This document shows positions 40,382 to 49,287 of a stretch of 64,000 nucleotides of DNA, piece by piece. The notes beneath the pieces are model-generated. The model was not told the DNA's origin and searched no databases. It worked only from the letters and a program-made list of their open reading frames with translations. This stretch comes from Thermochromatium tepidum ATCC 43061. GTDB taxonomy: Bacteria; Pseudomonadota; Gammaproteobacteria; Chromatiales; Chromatiaceae. The stretch's first letter is position 1. Every line of letters begins with the position of its first letter. The translations under genes were made by a program, and so were the position numbers. The stretch is taken from the NCBI RefSeq assembly GCF_009664085.1, contig NZ_CP039268.1:1907501-1971500 (forward strand), given 5' to 3'.

Positions 40382-42955
40382 ATGCTATTTCAGCGATGGC
40401 TCAAACGGCACCCGGCGAACGCCGACCAGACCCCCGACACCTCCAGGGCGGCACCCGCCCCCCCGCCCCCCCAGCCTCGTCTCCCTGAGACCCTACCCGA
40501 GAGGGCGCGTCTGCACCCGGATCCGGCTCAGCGTCTCGCGGCCATCGAACAGCTCGATGATCCTTCCGTGCTCGTCGAGTGTGCCATCCACGACACCCTG
40601 GCCGCCCATCGCGCCCGCGCGCTCGAACGGATCGACGACAAGGCCGCGCTCGAAGAGGTCGTGCGGCGCATCGGCAAGAAGGACAAGCGCGTCTATCGCA
40701 TGGCGCGCGAGAAGCTGCGTCGGATCGCCGAGCGCGAGCAACGTCCGCAGGTCCTACGCGAGCGTTGCGAGGAGCTCTGCGCCCAGGTCGAGCGTCTCGG
40801 TCGGCTCGGTCAGTGGAGCCAGGACCGCGCCCTGCTCGAACACCTTGAACGCCAATGGGGCGCGCTCCAGGACGAGGCCGAGCCGCACTACCGGGACCGT
40901 TTCGAGCGCGAACGGGCGCGTTTCCTCGACGCCTATGCTGCCCATCTCCAGGAACAGGCCCGGCGCCAGGCCGCGACCGAGGCGCGCGCCGTCGTCCGTG
41001 CCGAGCCCCAACCGACCGAATCCAGCCGGCCCGAGACGGGTTCGAGCCCCCAAGCGCACGCGCCCGCCCCCGGCCTGATCGAGTCGCCCAAGGCCGAACC
41101 GCTTGCGCGTCCGGACGACCCGCGCGCACTCGAACGTTTAGAGAAGACCTGCGCCAAGCTCGCGGAGATGCTCAGGGCCTCCAAGCCGCTCGACCACAAA
41201 CAGGCACGCCGGCTGCTCGACCAGGGATACGCCCTGGCCACGCACTGGTCCACCTCCGAGCCGGCGCGCGCCTTCCAGTCGCTCGCCGAGCGGCTGGAGG
41301 CGCGTCTGCGCGCCCAGCACAAACACGCCGAGCAGCGTCTGCGTCAATTCCCCGAACGGCTCGCCGAGCTGGAGGCCCATCTGGACGCGGGCGAGCTCAA
41401 ACAGGCCGAACCCCTGCATCAGAGCCTGCTGTCGGCGCTTGAGCTCATCCAGTCGAGCGGCATCGACCCCCGTCAGGCCGCCGATTTCAACCGCCGTCTG
41501 CGCGCCCTGGCGCCGCGTCTGCGCGAACTCCAGCACTGGCGCCGTTGGGGTGCCGACCAACACCGCGAGATGCTCTGCACCGAGATGGAGGCGCTGCTCG
41601 CTTCCGAGGACCTGGAACCCGCCACCCTCGCCGAGCGGCTGCACGCACTCCAGATGGACTGGAAGCGGCTCGACCAGATCGGCTCTCCGACCAATCAGGC
41701 CCTCTGGGAGCGCTTCCATGCCGCCTCCGAGCGCGTCTATGCGCGCTGTCGGCCCTTCATGGAGGCCCAGGCGGCTGAACGCGAACACAACCGCCTGGCC
41801 CGCGAACGGCTGTGCGAACAGCTTGAGTCTTTTCTCACCCAGGTCGATTGGGACCAGGTGGATTGGAAGCAGGTGCTCAAGACCGAGCGCGAGCTGCGTC
41901 AGGACTGGGCGGCCATAGGTCCGACCGAGGGGCGGGTGCGCAAGGCCCTCGAACGCCGCTTCCATCAGTCGCTGCGCATCCTCGATCGCCATCTGGATGC
42001 CGAGCGCGCGCGCAATCAGGCACTCAAACGCGACCTGATCGCGCGCGTCCAGGCCCTGGTCGATCTGCCTGACCTGGATGCCGCGATCGAACAGACCAAG
42101 GCACTGCAACGCGAATGGCACACCACGGTCCCGGCACGTCAGAAGGAAGAAAACCGGCTCTGGTGTGAATTCAGGTCCGCCTGTGACGCCGTCTTCGCGC
42201 GGCGCACCTTACGCCAACGGGCCCAGGCCCAGGAGCTGGCCGAGCATCTGGCGCTGCGCGAGGCACTCTGCGAGGAGGCCGAGCGTCTGGCCGCAGAGGA
42301 GCAAGATCCGAAACGACTGGCCGCCGCCCAGCGCGATCTGAGCGCGCGTTGGCGCGAGGCCGAGTCACTGCCGGTACCCCGTCAGGCTGCGGCCCAGAGC
42401 GCGCGCCGCTGGCAGGCGTGTCGCGAGGCCCTGGAGCGACGGCGCCAGGCCATCGAGCGCCGCCAACGGCTGGACGCACTCGCACGTCTGGAGCATCAGG
42501 CGGCGTTCTGCGAGCGTCTGGAGCTGGCGCTGATCGAGGGACGGACCGAGGGACTCGACCCCGAGGCGCTGCACCGTGAATGGGCCGAACTGCCCGCCCA
42601 GGAGGACCCTGGCCTGCAGCGCGCGATTGCGGCGCGCTTCGAGCGGGCCCTGAAGGCGATCGGGGATGCGACCGAACGCGATGCCCTGCGCCAGGCGTTT
42701 GCGGACAATGGGCCGCGCCGCGCCCAGCTCTGTCTCCAACTCGAGATCGCCGCCGGGATCGAGACCCCGCCCGAGTTTGCCAAACAACGCCTGGAGCTTC
42801 AGGTCGCGCGTCTGGCCGAGCGTCTGAGCGAGGGCGAGGAGGATTCTCTCCAGGGCGGTCTGCGGCTGCTCGACGATTGGTATCTGCTGGGTCCGGCACC
42901 GCGCGATCCGGCGCTCGAGCGGCGTTTTGAGCGCATCAGGGCGGCGCTGGTCTGA
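40382..42955 (+). CDS. DUF349 domain protein
   Basis: An 857-residue, Arg/Glu/Leu-rich, almost wholly helical protein. A proline-rich patch (about 20-40) is followed by HEAT-like helices (AAIEQLDDPSVLVECAI). Repeated DUF349 units follow, each with a W-x(4-6)-G or W-Q/W-A pattern (HWRRWGADQHREML, QDWAAIGPTEGRVRKALERR, REWHTTVPARQKEENRLW). The family is widespread in gammaproteobacteria with no assigned biochemical role. The stop at 42955 is 46 bp before the direct repeat that borders the defence-like debris. Confidence 0.85.
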   Translation: MLFQRWLKRHPANADQTPDTSRAAPAPPPPQPRLPETLPERARLHPDPAQRLAAIEQLDDPSVLVECAIHDTLAAHRARALERIDDKAALEEVVRRIGKKDKRVYRMAREKLRRIAEREQRPQVLRERCEELCAQVERLGRLGQWSQDRALLEHLERQWGALQDEAEPHYRDRFERERARFLDAYAAHLQEQARRQAATEARAVVRAEPQPTESSRPETGSSPQAHAPAPGLIESPKAEPLARPDDPRALERLEKTCAKLAEMLRASKPLDHKQARRLLDQGYALATHWSTSEPARAFQSLAERLEARLRAQHKHAEQRLRQFPERLAELEAHLDAGELKQAEPLHQSLLSALELIQSSGIDPRQAADFNRRLRALAPRLRELQHWRRWGADQHREMLCTEMEALLASEDLEPATLAERLHALQMDWKRLDQIGSPTNQALWERFHAASERVYARCRPFMEAQAAEREHNRLARERLCEQLESFLTQVDWDQVDWKQVLKTERELRQDWAAIGPTEGRVRKALERRFHQSLRILDRHLDAERARNQALKRDLIARVQALVDLPDLDAAIEQTKALQREWHTTVPARQKEENRLWCEFRSACDAVFARRTLRQRAQAQELAEHLALREALCEEAERLAAEEQDPKRLAAAQRDLSARWREAESLPVPRQAAAQSARRWQACREALERRRQAIERRQRLDALARLEHQAAFCERLELALIEGRTEGLDPEALHREWAELPAQEDPGLQRAIAARFERALKAIGDATERDALRQAFADNGPRRAQLCLQLEIAAGIETPPEFAKQRLELQVARLAERLSEGEEDSLQGGLRLLDDWYLLGPAPRDPALERRFERIRAALV

Positions 42956-43000
42956 GGCCCCCAGAACAACCCTGGCCAGGGCCAGGGTTAGGCTCCATCC

Positions 43001-43043
43001 CTTCACCTGCCGCCGACGAGATGTACGGTAAAACCCAGTGCGC
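43001..43043. repeat. Direct repeat, left copy (43 bp)
   Basis: This 43-bp stretch is repeated at 45511-45553 with two mismatches (positions 21 and 24 of the repeat). The right copy is the natural 3' end of the CxC gene, encoding ALGFTVHLVGGR and stop on the minus strand. The left copy keeps that C-terminal coding pattern but is fused to NurA-like sequence instead. The few bases before the repeat (TCCAT) are also similar. Confidence 0.85.
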
Positions 43044-43395
43044 CGCGCTGCGCAACAGACCGTCGCAGACGATCAAGGTGTCGGCGCCAAAGTCCTTTTT
43101 GAGGATGGCAAACAAGATCGCCCACTCGACCAGCTCCCGATAGACCTGCACCCAGCCCGGCGAAACCGGCTTGCCCTTGTCGGTTGGCCGAATCATGTGG
43201 GAGGGCGCCGGCAGGCTGTCTACACCCAAAAAGGCCATCATCTCGCCCAGAGCCGTCCGAGGTGTTCCATCGGGTTCGAATTGGCGCTTATCGAGCTTGT
43301 CGATGGGCGTCGTCGGCGAGATTGCCTCCAGGCAGTACTCGTTGTTGCTGCTGTCTACCACCCGGAACAGTTGGATAAGGGTCCTGGCGGACATC
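43044..43395 (-). pseudogene. NurA-domain nuclease fragment
   Basis: The minus strand encodes an open piece of about 117 residues: RTLIQLFRVVDSSNNEYCLE, PTDKGKPVSPGWVQVYREL, VEWAILFAILKKDFGADTLI and VCDGLLRS. This resembles the middle to C-terminal region of NurA-domain proteins, nucleases that pair with HerA ATPases and occur in defence islands. It is cut at the right where the BrxF-like start begins, and at the left by fusion to the 43-bp repeat. No start codon or nuclease N-terminus is present. Similarity is from memory of family motifs. Confidence 0.5.
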
Positions 43396-43500
43396 ATGGC
43401 GAAAATGGCTGAAGGGCAGCCGGAAATGCTCACTCGACTGGACCGTCTGGTCGACGAGATCGCGGCCCTGCACAGCAAGCTGATCCTGCTTGGGAGAACC
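43396..43500 (+). pseudogene. BrxF-like ATPase, N-terminal fragment
   Basis: From ATG 43396 the plus strand reads MAKMAEGQPEMLTRLDRLVD, EIAALHSKLILL. It then changes abruptly where a Walker A (GxxxxGKT) would be expected, and hits a stop in another frame. The helix-then-LILL layout resembles the small P-loop protein BrxF of type 3 BREX. Only about 33 codons remain, so the call is weak. It is joined directly to the next fragment. Confidence 0.4.
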
Positions 43501-44156
43501 AGGGTGTCAGCTACCGCGACATCGTCAACGTGACCGCTGGTCTGGCCCTCGGCGCCCACTTCGCGGATCTGGCGCCGGACTTGCGCCGCGACCCGCGCAT
43601 GGCGACCCTGCGGGCGCTCGCCGGCATCTCGCTCATGCCCACCGGGCAGCCGACCACCTTCGAGGACAAGCTGGACAAGCTCAAGATCTGCGCGTCCCTG
43701 GTCGAATCCGAGCTGGCCGCCAACCCGGTTTGCCCGCACTGCGGCTTCCGCCCCGCCAACGAGCAGGGCGAGCTGCTACCGGCGGCCAACGTGCTCAAGA
43801 CGCTGGACGACGAGCTCGATCGCCTGCTCGATGGATGGCGGCAAACCCTGCTGGACAACCTCGACGATCCGATCATCCAGGCCAACTTCGAGCTGCTGAA
43901 GGCCGCACAGCGAGATCTGATCAGGGGCTTCCTTGCCTCGAAGTCCTTGCCAGACCCGGTCACGCCCGAGTTCGTCGCGGCCGTGCAGGAGCCGGCAACC
44001 CGTTGGTGTGCCTACATCCCGGACGGTGACGATCGCTCAAGCCCCTGCCAGATGCGCCTTGCCAACTGTCGCCAACTGGCCTTCCCGTGCTGCCTGTATC
44101 CAGTTCCTGGCAGCTCTTCGGCATCGAGCACCTACCAGCGGCCAAAACGGAATTGA
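43490..44156 (+). pseudogene. C-terminal fragment of a large defence-type ATPase (DUF6079/BrxC-like)
   Basis: The frame begins mid-protein (ENQGVSYRDIVNVTAGLALG) and continues through LRALAGISLMPTGQPTTFED, KICASLVESELAANPVCPHC and CGFRPANEQGELL to TPEFVAAVQE. It then diverges near 44000 into cysteine-rich residues that look noncoding. The CPHCGF half-ribbon and the helical layout recall the C-terminus of the large DUF6079/BrxC/PglY ATPases of BREX-like systems. No start codon, Walker motifs or natural C-terminus remain. Confidence 0.45.
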
Positions 44157-44396
44157 CAGAAGGAACGATACACAACTTCGCCTTTCATCCGACTCTTATC
44201 GCGCCACCTGTTGGGACGACGGGATGTTTGATGCAATCGCCCTGAGGTCTGCCCCTCGAGGGGAGAGACGCGAGCTGTGAATCGCCGCAGTGTCGGATGG
44301 ACGCAGCGCAGGGCGATGGCAGCGCCGGGCGGCGGGAGCAGAGGGGGCAATGATGGCTGTGAATCGGCCCCAGCGGCCTTCCGGTCGGCGAGCGGA

Positions 44397-45509
44397 TCAG
44401 AAGAGTTTCAGTTGTGCTATGGACGATGCTTGCATTGCAGGTGGCTGGAACAACTCGCAGCGTAACGCCGGCCAGTCTTGGTCGAGCCCCAAGCGCCGGC
44501 AGGCGAGGCGGAAACGCTGCGCGAGCAGGTCAGCAAGCGGCCCTTCACCGCGCATGCGCCGGCCGAAACGGGCATCGTTCAGCGCTCCGCCGCGCATCTG
44601 GGTGATCAGGCTGAGCACACGGGCGGCACGCCCTGGGTAGTGAGTGTGCAGCCATTGCTGGAACAGACCGGCCACCTCACCCGGCAGGCGCACAAGCTGC
44701 CAGTCGGCCCGACACGCGCCCACCTTGCGCGCGGCAGCGAGCAGCGTCTCCAGTTCGTCGTCGTTGAGGCCGGGAATGATCGGGGCGACCATGACGCCGA
44801 CCGGCACGCCGGCCTCGCTCAAGCGGCGCATGGCGGCAAGCCGGCGCTGTGGCGCACTGGCGCGCGGTTCGAGCCGGCGCGCCAGTGTGCCGTCGAGCGT
44901 GGTGAGCGAGAGGCTGACGTGCACCAGCCCGTCGCGCGCCAGATCGGTCAGAAGATCGATATCGCGTTCGATGAGCGCCGATTTGGTGACGATCCCGACC
45001 GGATGCCGGCATTCGGCCAGCACTTCCAGCAGCGCGCGCGTCAGGCCGAGCTGGCGCTCGATGGGTTGCCAGCCATCGGTGTTGCCGCAGAGCGCCAGCG
45101 GCTGACAGCGATAGCTGGGGCGGGCGAGCTCACGGCGCAACAGCTCCGCCGCCGCCGGTTTGGCGATGAGTCGCGTTTCGAAATCGAGACCGGGTGAGTC
45201 GCCGAGATAGGCATGCGAGGGTCGGGCATAGCAGTAGATACAACCATGTTCGCAGCCGCGATAGGGATTGGCCGACTGCGCAAAAGGCACGTCCGGCGAA
45301 TCGTTGCCGCTGATGATCGTGCGGGCAGTCTCGAAAGTCAGTTCGGTCGGCACGGTGTCGACAGCGGCTTCGGCGTGTCGCCAGCCGTCATCGACGGCCT
45401 GCCGCTGCCAGGCCTCGAAGCGACCGCTGGCGTTGCTGAGTGCGCCCCGACCACGTTGCCGTGCGCCCGCCGGCGGAGCGGTTGGACCTTCGTCGAGGGT
45501 CCGGTCCAT
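44397..45509 (-). CDS. PA0069-family radical SAM protein
   Basis: A 370-residue enzyme with a radical SAM cluster motif in NPYRGCEHGCIYCYARPSHA (CxxxCxxC). Other landmarks are ISGNDSPDVPFAQSANPY, LCGNTDGWQPIERQLGLTRA, the VGIVTKSALIERDIDLL strand and VMVAPIIPGLND. This is the PA0069/SplB-like group of proteins; the reaction is unknown. Its ATG is 3 bp after the stop of the CxC gene, so it is probably the last gene of that operon. The left-hand 43-bp repeat lies about 1.4 kb beyond its 3' end. Confidence 0.85.
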   Translation of the reverse strand: MDRTLDEGPTAPPAGARQRGRGALSNASGRFEAWQRQAVDDGWRHAEAAVDTVPTELTFETARTIISGNDSPDVPFAQSANPYRGCEHGCIYCYARPSHAYLGDSPGLDFETRLIAKPAAAELLRRELARPSYRCQPLALCGNTDGWQPIERQLGLTRALLEVLAECRHPVGIVTKSALIERDIDLLTDLARDGLVHVSLSLTTLDGTLARRLEPRASAPQRRLAAMRRLSEAGVPVGVMVAPIIPGLNDDELETLLAAARKVGACRADWQLVRLPGEVAGLFQQWLHTHYPGRAARVLSLITQMRGGALNDARFGRRMRGEGPLADLLAQRFRLACRRLGLDQDWPALRCELFQPPAMQASSIAQLKLF

Positions 45510-45510
45510 G

Positions 45511-45553
45511 CTTCACCTGCCGCCGACGAGGTGCACGGTAAAACCCAGTGCGC
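45511..45553. repeat. Direct repeat, right copy (43 bp)
   Basis: Second copy of the repeat at 43001-43043 (41 of 43 identical). Here it is the last 13 codons and stop of the CxC gene. The repeat ends 2 bp short of the radical SAM start codon. Confidence 0.85.
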
Positions 45554-46444
45554 GGATGGATGGGCAGCCTGCGGCGTCCGGCTCGGTCAGCTCGACCTGC
45601 TCGACCCTCAGCGCGCCGCGGCCAAAGCGTTCGATGTCGGCGATGTCTGCGGCGGTCGGCGCACGCACAGTGGCGACTTTGGGTGAGAAGATGAAGCGGC
45701 GCGGGTTTTCCGGGCCGGCCTCCGCGCCGTAATCGCGTGTGGTGCAGCGCTGCGGGTCGGCAAGGAAGTGCCAGCCTTCGATGTCGCGCGGATTGGGCAT
45801 GAAGTGCCAGGGTGGTGTCAGACGGGCGAGGTTGTCCTCCTGGCCATGCTCACGGATCACGATCTCCCAGCCGTGCGGTCGGGGTTCGAGACGGAACTCG
45901 AAGCGGCCACCGAAGCGTTGCCGGAATGTCTCGCCCGCCCGCAGGTGGCCGCGGATGCGCAGATCGAAGGCGGGTGGACGCAGCCTCTTTTTCAGTTCGG
46001 CAAGCGGCAGGCGTTGGCTATCGGTCGCGTCGGCAAAGATCTTGCCGCTTGCCATGCCATGATCGACGCGCAACCAGTATTCGCCACAGTGCGACAGCGC
46101 CCAGCCTTGGCCCGGCTTGGCACCGGGGCCGTTCAAGGCCAGCAGCCATTCGGTACCGGGCGGAAAGTCGGTCATCGGCGGACGACAGTGCATGCCATCG
46201 CCCATGGCGACGAGCAGGCCGCTGTCGAGGAGGCCGCCTTGCAGGGTGTCCAGCACCTGCACGCTCATCTTCGCTTCCGGCCCGGCGTGGTGGCGCAGGA
46301 TGCGGCCATGCACGATGAGCGACGCATTCCTGGCGACTTCGAGGAAGTTGCCCTCCAGGCACAGGAGCAGGCCAGCGCGATGACAGGCACGCCAAGGAGT
46401 ATGGCGCCAAGCCACCAACGGCGCGATAGGACAAAACGGCGCAT
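45513..46444 (-). pseudogene. Secreted CxC protein, frameshifted
   Basis: The start MRRFVLSRRWWLGAILLGVP and signal peptide (to about IALACSC) are in one frame. The mature part (EGNFLEVARNASLIVHGRIL to ALGFTVHLVGGR) is in another. The total length (932 bp) is not a multiple of three. Near 46358-46366, reading the coding strand as TCC-TGTG-CCTGG, removing one TG restores CSCLEGNF, so a 2-bp tandem duplication explains the break. The N-terminal CxC and following strand resemble NTR/TIMP-like domains (weak). The ATG overlaps the stop of the upstream gene. It could be a sequencing error rather than a true pseudogene. Confidence 0.7.
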
Positions 46445-47049
46445 CAGGGTTGCCTCGGCTGGCGTTTTTGCAGCTCGCGCGCCAGACAGGCGACCGCTGG
46501 CCGGCGGCTGACGAGTACGGGTGCGAGGGCCTGCTCGAAACGACGGGAGAGCCCGGCCTGCATCTGGGGCGGTGCCCAGCGCTGCGCCGCCTGGAGGCGA
46601 TGGGCGAGCAGCAGATGCAGAAAGGGGGCGATGGCGGTGTCGGCATGGGCGGCGAGCCAGTCGGCGACGAAATCCGCTTCGGCGAGCGGGCTGTCGACCA
46701 TGCCTTCCCACTCGACGGCGAGCGGGAAGTCCTGGGCGAAGGCCGTTGCCTCATCGCGCACCGATTCACCCAGCACGGCCACCATCTGTTCGACCAGGCG
46801 ACGCCGCAGCAACGGCAGGGCGGTTTCGGCCGAGGCGGGCGGCGACATCCGCCACAGCGGCGAGTGCGGCGCCACGCCGGCGAGATAACTGGCCAGACAG
46901 TCCGGGTCGCTGGCCGGGGCGATGGCACGGGGCAGTTCGCTGAGCGGCAAGACGCCATGCAACACCACATCGGCGAGCGTAAGCCGCGTTTCGGCCGCGA
47001 CACTGCCGCCAACGCGCCCAAGGAGCCAAAGGAGGACGAGGCCACGCAT
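46444..47049 (-). CDS. Secreted protein of unknown function
   Basis: A 201-residue protein with a short signal peptide (MRGLVLLWLLGRVGGSVAA). The mature part is helix-rich, with LPRAIAPASDPDCLASYLAG, LRRRLVEQMVAVLGESVRDE and FLHLLLAHRLQAAQRWAP. I do not recognise the family. It is the first gene of a tight operon: its TGA overlaps the ATG of the CxC gene, which abuts the radical SAM gene. A small secreted protein, a CxC partner and a radical SAM enzyme together suggest a modification or envelope role, but this is inference. Confidence 0.6.
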   Translation of the reverse strand: MRGLVLLWLLGRVGGSVAAETRLTLADVVLHGVLPLSELPRAIAPASDPDCLASYLAGVAPHSPLWRMSPPASAETALPLLRRRLVEQMVAVLGESVRDEATAFAQDFPLAVEWEGMVDSPLAEADFVADWLAAHADTAIAPFLHLLLAHRLQAAQRWAPPQMQAGLSRRFEQALAPVLVSRRPAVACLARELQKRQPRQP

Positions 47050-47134
47050 CAGTCGTGCCGCTCATCGGGTGCCGCGCCGAAAGAAAGGCCGAAGCGCTCG
47101 CGGCCCACGCGGCTTCGACCGCGGCGCTGAGGTC

Positions 47135-48373
47135 TCAGGCCCCACGTCCGCGCCCGTAGTGCGATTCGATGTAGGCATCGACCAGGCGCTTGAACTGCTC
47201 GGTGATGCCCTCGCCCTTGAGTGTGGCGACCTTCTCGCCATCGACATAGACGGGCGCGGCCGGACGCTCGCCGCTGCCGGGCAGGCTGATGCCGATGTTG
47301 GCATGCCTGCTCTCGCCCGGTCCATTGACCACGCAGCCCATCACCGCCACCTTCAGGGTCTCGATCCCCGGATACCGGGTGCACCATTCAGGCATCCGCG
47401 CGCGCAGATAGCCCTGGATGTCCTTGGCCAGGTGCTGGAAGGTGTCGCTGGTGGTGCGTCCGCAGCCGGGGCAGGCGGTGACCATGGGCGCAAACGCACG
47501 CAGCCCCATGGATTGTAGGATCTCCTGTGCCACCACCACCTCGCGGGTGCGCGACTCACCCGGTTCCGGGGTGAGCGAGACGCGGATGGTGTCGCCGATC
47601 CCCTCCTGTAACAAGACGGCAAGGGCCGCGGTCGAGGCGACGATACCCTTGGTGCCCATGCCGGCCTCGGTCAGACCCAGATGCAAGGCGTGATCGGTGC
47701 GGGCCGCGAGCATCCGATAGACCCGGATCAGGTCCTGCACCCCGCTCATCTTGCACGAAAGCACGATATGATCCCTCGGCAGACCCAGTTGCACCGCACG
47801 CTCGGCACTGCTGATGGCCGACTCGACCATGGCCTCGTACATGATCTGGTCGCTGTCCTTGGGCTGGGGGGCCCGGGCGTTGTCATCCATCATCCGCGCC
47901 ACCAGCTCCTGATCCAGACTCCCCCAGTTGACCCCGATCCGCACCGGGCGGTCGTAACGGCAGGCCAGCTCGATCAGGGTCGCAAACTGGCTGTCCCGCT
48001 TTTCGCCCGTGCCGACATTGCCCGGATTGATCCGGTACTTGGCCAGGGCCTGGGCGCACTCGGGATAGTCGGTCAGCAGCCGATGGCCGTTGAAATGGAA
48101 GTCACCCACCAGCGGGACCGAGCAGTCCTGGGCATCGAGCGCCGCGCGGATCGCCGGGACGGCCTTGGCGGCCGATTCATGGTTGACGGTCAGACGTACC
48201 AGCTCGGAGCCGGCACGCGCCAGCTCGATCACTTGACGCACGGTCGACTCGATGTCGGCGGTGTCGGTGTTGGTCATGGACTGGACGACGATCGGTGCTC
48301 CGCCACCGATGGTCAGGTGGCCGACGGTCACGGGTAGGGTCGGGCGGCGCTGGGGGGTGTTGGTTTGGCTCAT
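47135..48373 (-). CDS. ispG: 4-hydroxy-3-methylbut-2-enyl diphosphate synthase
   Basis: A 412-residue MEP-pathway enzyme (GcpE) that converts MEcPP to HMBPP. It has [34 protein letters not shown], and [20 protein letters not shown]. The C-terminal [4Fe-4S] ligands are in [14 protein letters not shown] and [17 protein letters not shown], with the conserved Glu. The ATG at 48373 is followed by an unstructured lead-in ([11 protein letters not shown]); the frame stays open 21 codons further. Confidence 0.96.
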
Positions 48374-48432
48374 GGGTGCGACTCGTTCTACATCGGCGAT
48401 AAGGGACACAAGGGGGTTGATCCAGGCGGTCT

Positions 48433-49287
48433 TCAAGGCAGGGGTGCGCGCAGCCCGGCTAGGATCTCAAGATAATCCGGCTCATCCGGGGCGATGAAAC
48501 CATGCCGGATCAGAAAGTCGATGATGGTCAGGTTGCAGTTGAGCTTGAAGGCCTCGGTGTCGCGCACCAGCGCGGCGACCTCGGCCAGCGGCAGTCGCCG
48601 GAAGGACTCGACCTCGCCATCGGTACAGACCGGCTCAAAGTCCTCCGGCAGTTCCAAATCGTAGCAGTACATGACATCCGGCTTGAGCCCCTCCGGCGCG
48701 GCGCGGCAATAGGTGATGGCGCCCACCGCCACCGCCCGATCGGCGAGCACAGACGGTATCCCGGCCTCCTCGGCGCATTCCTTGCGCAGATTATCCGCCA
48801 GACTCAACCCATACGGGAGCCCGCCGGCGACCAGATTGTCCAGATGGAGCGGATAATGACGCCGATCCGCCGCACGCCGCCCGACCCACATCTCGGTCCC
48901 ATGTGGGGTGCGGACATAGCCGTTGAGGTGCTGGCCAAAGGCGCGTGCACCGAGAAAGGGGGCATAGGCGCGGTCGATCAGACAGCAGACCTGGTCGCGG
49001 GTGCCGGCGGTCAAGGGATAGCGCTCGCCGTGCGGCGGGCCGACCACACCCTCCTCGGCCAGGGCGGCAAAGAGGGTATCCAACACCTCGGTGCGCGCTG
49101 CGAATCCCTCCGGCGCGCCGAACCAGATCACGGCCTCGGACTCGACCCCAAACTGTCTCGGCCAGCGCCGCAGGTGGTCGCGGGCGCGGCGATGCAACCA
49201 GCCGATCTGGGTCCCATTGAGCCACAGGGGCACGAAATCGCCCGGATTCCAGGCGTTACAGGCACGAATCTTGTCAAGAAAGCCCAT
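48433..49287 (-). CDS. DUF4743-Nudix hydrolase
   Basis: A 284-residue two-domain protein. N-terminal DUF4743-like domain ([32 protein letters not shown]) is joined to a Nudix domain. The Nudix box reads [20 protein letters not shown] (Gx5Ex7REUxEExGU, with the first Glu replaced by Ser). Members related to yeast Tnr3 hydrolyse damaged thiamine diphosphates. ATG 49287 chosen (MGFLDKI); ATG 49296 is an alternative. It lies 12 bp after ppsR. Confidence 0.85.

Follow-up and report, generated by a model that had tools for sequence, protein, structure and literature searches.

Genes and relics between DUF349 and ispG

The window, that is, the whole stretch of 64,000 nucleotides analysed here and to which the coordinates below refer, sits in a single-contig genome (G000) of 2,958,290 bases. 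The following features are present at the locus, from left to right:

40382..42955, forward strand: DUF349 gene, the intact resident left neighbour (PF03993, E 2.6e-37; 80% identical in G001, G004 and G006)
42941..42961, forward strand: left copy of an outer repeat, comprising the final codons of DUF349, its stop and the 6 bases that follow
42968..42989, no strand assigned: hairpin with a 9-bp stem between the DUF349 stop and the left 43-bp copy (predicted fold)
43001-43043, reverse strand: left copy of the 43-bp repeat, an orphan CxC 3' end
43047..43380, reverse strand: internal fragment of a HerA-partner gene, both ends cut (86% DNA identity to G000:C1:1129217-1129550)
43578..43991, forward strand: C-terminal fragment of a BREX BrxC/PglY (DUF6079) gene (PF19557, E 2e-44, profile positions 1048-1182 of 1238)
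44143..44177, no strand assigned: solitary terminal repeat of IS256 (Mutator) type, the remainder of the element being absent
44397..45509, reverse strand: full-length radical SAM gene, PA0069 family (NF033668, 495 bits, cut-off 360)
45511-45553, reverse strand: right copy of the 43-bp repeat, the native CxC 3' end, as far as which homologues align
45513..46445, reverse strand: CxC gene, a guest, absent here in relatives (body 48-55% identical to homologues)
46444..47049, reverse strand: ORF201, a frequent partner of CxC
47121..47143, forward strand: right copy of the outer repeat, overlapping the ispG stop
47135..48436, reverse strand: ispG, the intact resident right neighbour (TIGR00612, E 2.1e-119)

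The two 43-bp copies enclose the radical SAM gene and the relics of defence genes, as the sequence-only reading had stated. The HerA-partner fragment is 334 bp long and has an intact paralogue in the same genome, beside a HerA ATPase gene (PF01935) at 1.13 Mb. The HerA partner is presumably NurA-like, by position only, and naming it NurA by family was rejected, since neither NCBIfam, Pfam nor the solved structures gave a match. The site of the intact paralogue (L033, G000:C1:1124000-1132500) also has a tyrosine integrase and a DNA methylase near the HerA ATPase, as well as type I modification-like genes recognised by eye only.

The BrxC/PglY fragment was also matched by the PADLOC model BrxC-PglY (E 5.4e-42), and the two smallest candidate BREX pieces (43426-43491 and 43497-43580) were not counted because both came from one tblastx set that included chance matches. 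A BREX-type set with full-length BrxC/PglY, PglXI, an AAA ATPase and PglZ is present in G006 (L064, G006:C1:992000-1010500). The C-terminal piece resembles what a degraded BREX defence island would leave, with G006 having BrxC/PglY, PglXI and PglZ together, but only a scrap of the system remains here.

Short stretches similar to the IS256-type end occur at three other places in G000 and at two in G006, and two of these five adjoin a PF00872 transposase frame (L037, L062). It was the sole IS-type end found, inside the interval, in a search that was not systematic for other IS families; no identical short repeats abutting IS inverted terminal repeats, the pattern of a target-site duplication, were seen. 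With its single IS256-type end a short way past the BrxC fragment, the locus recalls an IS256-mediated deletion scar, but nothing is left of the body of the element and no IS end is found in either 43-bp copy. Within the family the radical SAM gene has a patchy distribution, 26 of 116 genomes, our own among them, scoring above the cut-off. In G005 its homologue adjoins a rep/uvrD-like helicase (L032, G005:C1:1851000-1862000), and in the window about 8 kb separate the radical SAM gene from the homologue of that helicase, which is on its left. The hairpin was rejected as a terminator, since the terminator scan did not list it and its stability was not above that of shuffles (z -0.4 and -0.6).

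The DUF349–ispG junction in relatives

The DUF349 gene is present in seven of the eight genomes of the genus, our own included, and its surroundings were compared in the other six. In four of them (G002, G004, G005 and G006) it is directly followed by ispG in convergent orientation, and in G001 and G007 by something other than ispG; CxC, ORF201, the radical SAM gene and the other insert pieces had no match in any of the six DUF349 regions. DUF349 protein identity is 66% for G005, 76% for G002, 85% for G004 and 84% for G006, and because the more distant G005 and G002 have the direct junction as well as G004 and G006, it is most simply read as the ancestral state in the genus. Outside the genus, 27 other family genomes with DUF349 gave no ispG or CxC match downstream, the DNA available there being at least 1 kb in 24 genomes and 14 to 564 bases in three.

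The convergent DUF349–ispG junction is therefore interrupted by about 4.2 kb, at about 42962-47120, that the genus relatives lack. As the derived stretch runs from the DUF349 stop to the ispG stop, it includes the source gene of the 43-bp repeat; CxC belongs to the derived insert and is a guest gene, since DUF349 and ispG are directly adjacent without it in four of the six relatives. The 43-bp pair is internal to an acquired, broken patch and does not mark the edges of that patch. The earlier description of the repeat as framing the debris holds for the inner 2.5 kb, but the region missing in relatives extends to ispG at 47135. It is very improbable that CxC was resident beside DUF349, as had been assumed, and that a single element at its 3' end left 43001-45553 as the whole insert: repeat anatomy and position would fit, but CxC is absent between DUF349 and ispG in all four relatives keeping the junction, and the three of 54 other relatives that have CxC carry it elsewhere in the genome or on other contigs.

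In addition, the distribution of CxC was followed beyond these relatives. CxC was found at 17 loci in genome_contigs, of which 10 are titled deltaproteobacterial or related groups (two of these being the ends of one contig), and viral contigs gave no CxC match. An ORF201 homologue is directly upstream of CxC at nine of the 17 loci and in none of the three relatives having CxC, and the radical SAM gene was found in the available surroundings of none of 20 CxC loci outside our own genome. Because ORF201 precedes CxC at nine of 17 loci and the radical SAM gene is near none of the 20, the ORF201-CxC pair is often a unit of its own.

The CSCxW motif is located near the mature start in the 11 homologues read, and here it is encoded in another frame, the CxC frame breaking just after the motif (window 46330-46440, minus strand), so that the gene is either truly broken or affected by a sequencing error. 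The CxC homologue of G005 (L030, G005:C1:2199057-2199902) has an internal TAG in frame, and decay of CxC may thus be under way in another genus member as well. Moreover, two CxC loci lie at contig ends of JAABQB010000013.1 in opposite orientation (L045 and L046); they are equal in length with the same match coordinates and are not letter-identical, possibly reflecting an assembly artefact or a terminal inverted duplication.

The 43-bp repeat and its source gene

The direct repeat reported from the sequence alone is present, its copies at 43001-43043 and 45511-45553 agreeing at 41 of 43 positions; the runner-up site in the window reaches 24 of 43 and the best on the opposite strand also 24, which places the repeat far beyond chance. 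Its assignment to a gene end was likewise borne out, since the right copy consists of the last 12 codons and stop of CxC (45513-45551) plus 2 bases on each side. The left copy is part of no intact gene, as had been proposed, but the gap between it and the DUF349 stop (42955) is 45 bases instead of 46.

Identity between the copies ends 2 bases beyond the CxC stop codon. A tandem duplication of CxC would carry the likeness on past both ends of the copied segment. Continuing the alignment beyond the stop codon adds 17 columns only with two gaps, and at the opposite end the likeness is cut short by an unrelated fragment of a gene, the HerA-partner piece, which begins 3 bases away and is itself cut there. 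Both mismatches fall at third codon positions and are synonymous. Since 33 of the 117 possible single substitutions in the 39-base gene end are synonymous, two random changes would both be so in 8% of cases (13% for transitions), and the mismatches therefore only hint at a functional gene end as the ancestor of the left copy.

These details bear on two explanations without an insertion at the CxC 3' end. It is quite possible, if tentative, that the left copy is all that survives of another CxC, slightly diverged and either a duplicate or an allele brought in on foreign DNA, the body of which was deleted on joining to the HerA-partner fragment. Synonymous mismatches would be expected of a gene kept under selection, the copy ends 3 bases before another truncated gene, and the other inner pieces, except the radical SAM gene, are likewise cut fragments; but the protein search of our genome gives one CxC match and no second copy, the likeness of the two copies past the stop codon is not convincing, and one more deletion is needed than with two successive insertions for the same facts. 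Alternatively, the 43 bases may have been copied into a break during repair, as a templated patch or by illegitimate recombination, while scraps were joined. The patchwork of short fragments with unrelated neighbours does suggest repeated end joining, but this origin is unlikely, as the copy closely matches the last codons and stop of the gene with synonymous changes, neither of which a random patch need show.

The 43-mer was absent from the seven other genus genomes at up to 3 mismatches (one carrier among eight, our own) and from 368 other class genomes (one among 369, again our own), and in the six DUF349 regions of relatives its best ungapped match was only 24 to 26 of 43. Carriage by phages or plasmids was rejected, since viral contigs gave no match, and phages and plasmids gave only short ones (E about 3 to 10). 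No empty site with a single 43-bp copy was found among the seven genus and 368 class genomes, and the strain that the sequence-only reading had looked to, with one copy and with DUF349 beside CxC, was not among them. The converse arrangement, relatives with both copies and no insert, was not seen either; four of the six DUF349 relatives have neither copy.

Gene-end repeats and a proposed history of insertion

When 60 bases around each synteny-defined edge were compared, a second, imperfect repeat was found. The two outer copies align as GCGGCGCT--GGTCTGAGGCCCC against GCGGCGCTGAGGTCTCAGGCCCC (21 of 23 bp, local score 30), a score reached by about 1 per 10,000 random 60-mer pairs from the window and by 2.5 per 10,000 at a GC fraction of at least 0.6, figures that are somewhat flattering because the match was spotted by eye before the score was chosen. 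In the right copy, GCGGCGCTG is 5 bases from the ispG stop, which is the spacing of the DUF349 end in the uninterrupted G006 site; in G002, G004 and G005 the spacing at the uninterrupted site is longer, so that the 5-base spacing occurs in one of four. From its sequence and position, the outer pair looks like a duplicated DUF349 3' end, and for this pair an uninterrupted junction exists in four relatives. Direct repeats of gene 3' ends are thus found at two levels, as the inner 43-bp pair and as the outer 21/23-bp pair at the synteny-defined borders.

An integrase acting at the CxC 3' end, the enzyme expected by the sequence-only reading, was sought in the window without success: tyrosine integrases (PF00589) have four matches in the genome and resolvases (PF00239) two, none of them in the window. 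When the integrases of our genome were searched for at the other CxC loci and in the window, no match was obtained either; each of the four integrase loci was represented by its longest frame, which at L067 and L070 may be a frame other than the integrase. The idea that the CxC 3' end serves generally as a landing site was rejected: at 17 other CxC loci (leaving out L046, which is the other end of the L045 contig, and L054 and L055, in which the 3' end is missing) no credible second copy was found, and the CxC end is therefore not a known landing site. Weak matches were seen at two of the 17, of 33 bp at L045 and of 13 bp at L043, the former being rejected as a CxC 3' duplicate because it is inside an unrelated open frame.

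Prophage e14 in icd of E. coli is an example of an element that integrates into the 3' end of a protein gene and restores the gene. Like islands and prophages of this kind, the locus has a direct repeat of last codons, with synonymous differences, around acquired DNA; unlike them, it has no integrase, intact element or single-copy 43-bp empty site, and the gene concerned is itself acquired. Gene-3'-end integration as first proposed thus stands in the duplication, its gene-end origin and its position around the relics, and falls in the borders and in the residency of CxC. According to one report, islands often restore the gene they enter (PMC12884075). In the portions of the literature that were available, no treatment of this locus was found.

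The locus is an ordinary decayed island with a double footprint. As its history we prefer two successive insertions, at a probability of roughly 0.4; this reading is unproven, and a remnant of a second CxC is almost as likely. The first arrival would have been the ORF201-CxC pair, inserting at the 3' end of DUF349 and leaving about 21 bp of that end duplicated. Further acquired DNA, with the radical SAM gene and the BREX and HerA-partner genes, would then have inserted at the CxC 3' end, with the complete gene end remaining to its right and the 43-bp end displaced to its left along with the hairpin. Finally, only scraps of the second insert would have survived deletions and the action of an IS256-type element, through which any integrase would also have been lost.

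Two successive insertions are preferred because DUF349 and ispG are direct neighbours in four of the six other genus members with DUF349, because nested repeats fit successive insertions at gene 3' ends, because the outer repeat sits at the synteny-defined edges with its right copy at the spacing of the G006 empty site, and because the 43-bp identity ends just past the stop codon with synonymous changes, as with a gene-restoring element. In addition, the inner interval consists of cut genes and one intact radical SAM gene, and ORF201-CxC occurs apart from that gene. Against this history stand the window without a tyrosine-integrase or resolvase match, the lack of credible duplicates at other CxC 3' ends, and the failure to find a genome with the first layer only. 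The left copy, moreover, abuts a gene fragment cut there, a cut that a clean att junction does not require; neither repeat is perfect, only one of four uninterrupted sites has the 5-base spacing, and chance alone would make two changes synonymous in 8-13% of cases.

The locus illustrates how a convincing repeat may give a wrong idea of an island's borders: only comparison with relatives exposed the foreign source gene and the shorter border repeat. If the history of two insertions is true, the locus would be a small record of sequential gene-3'-end insertions without a surviving integrase. In a more specific version, the small ORF201-CxC unit would enter where the ends of two genes converge, duplicate about 21 bp at the 3' end of the resident gene, and then provide, with its own 3' end, the attachment site of a second element. 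This version is improbable; if it were true, islands would grow as each guest offers the next landing site.
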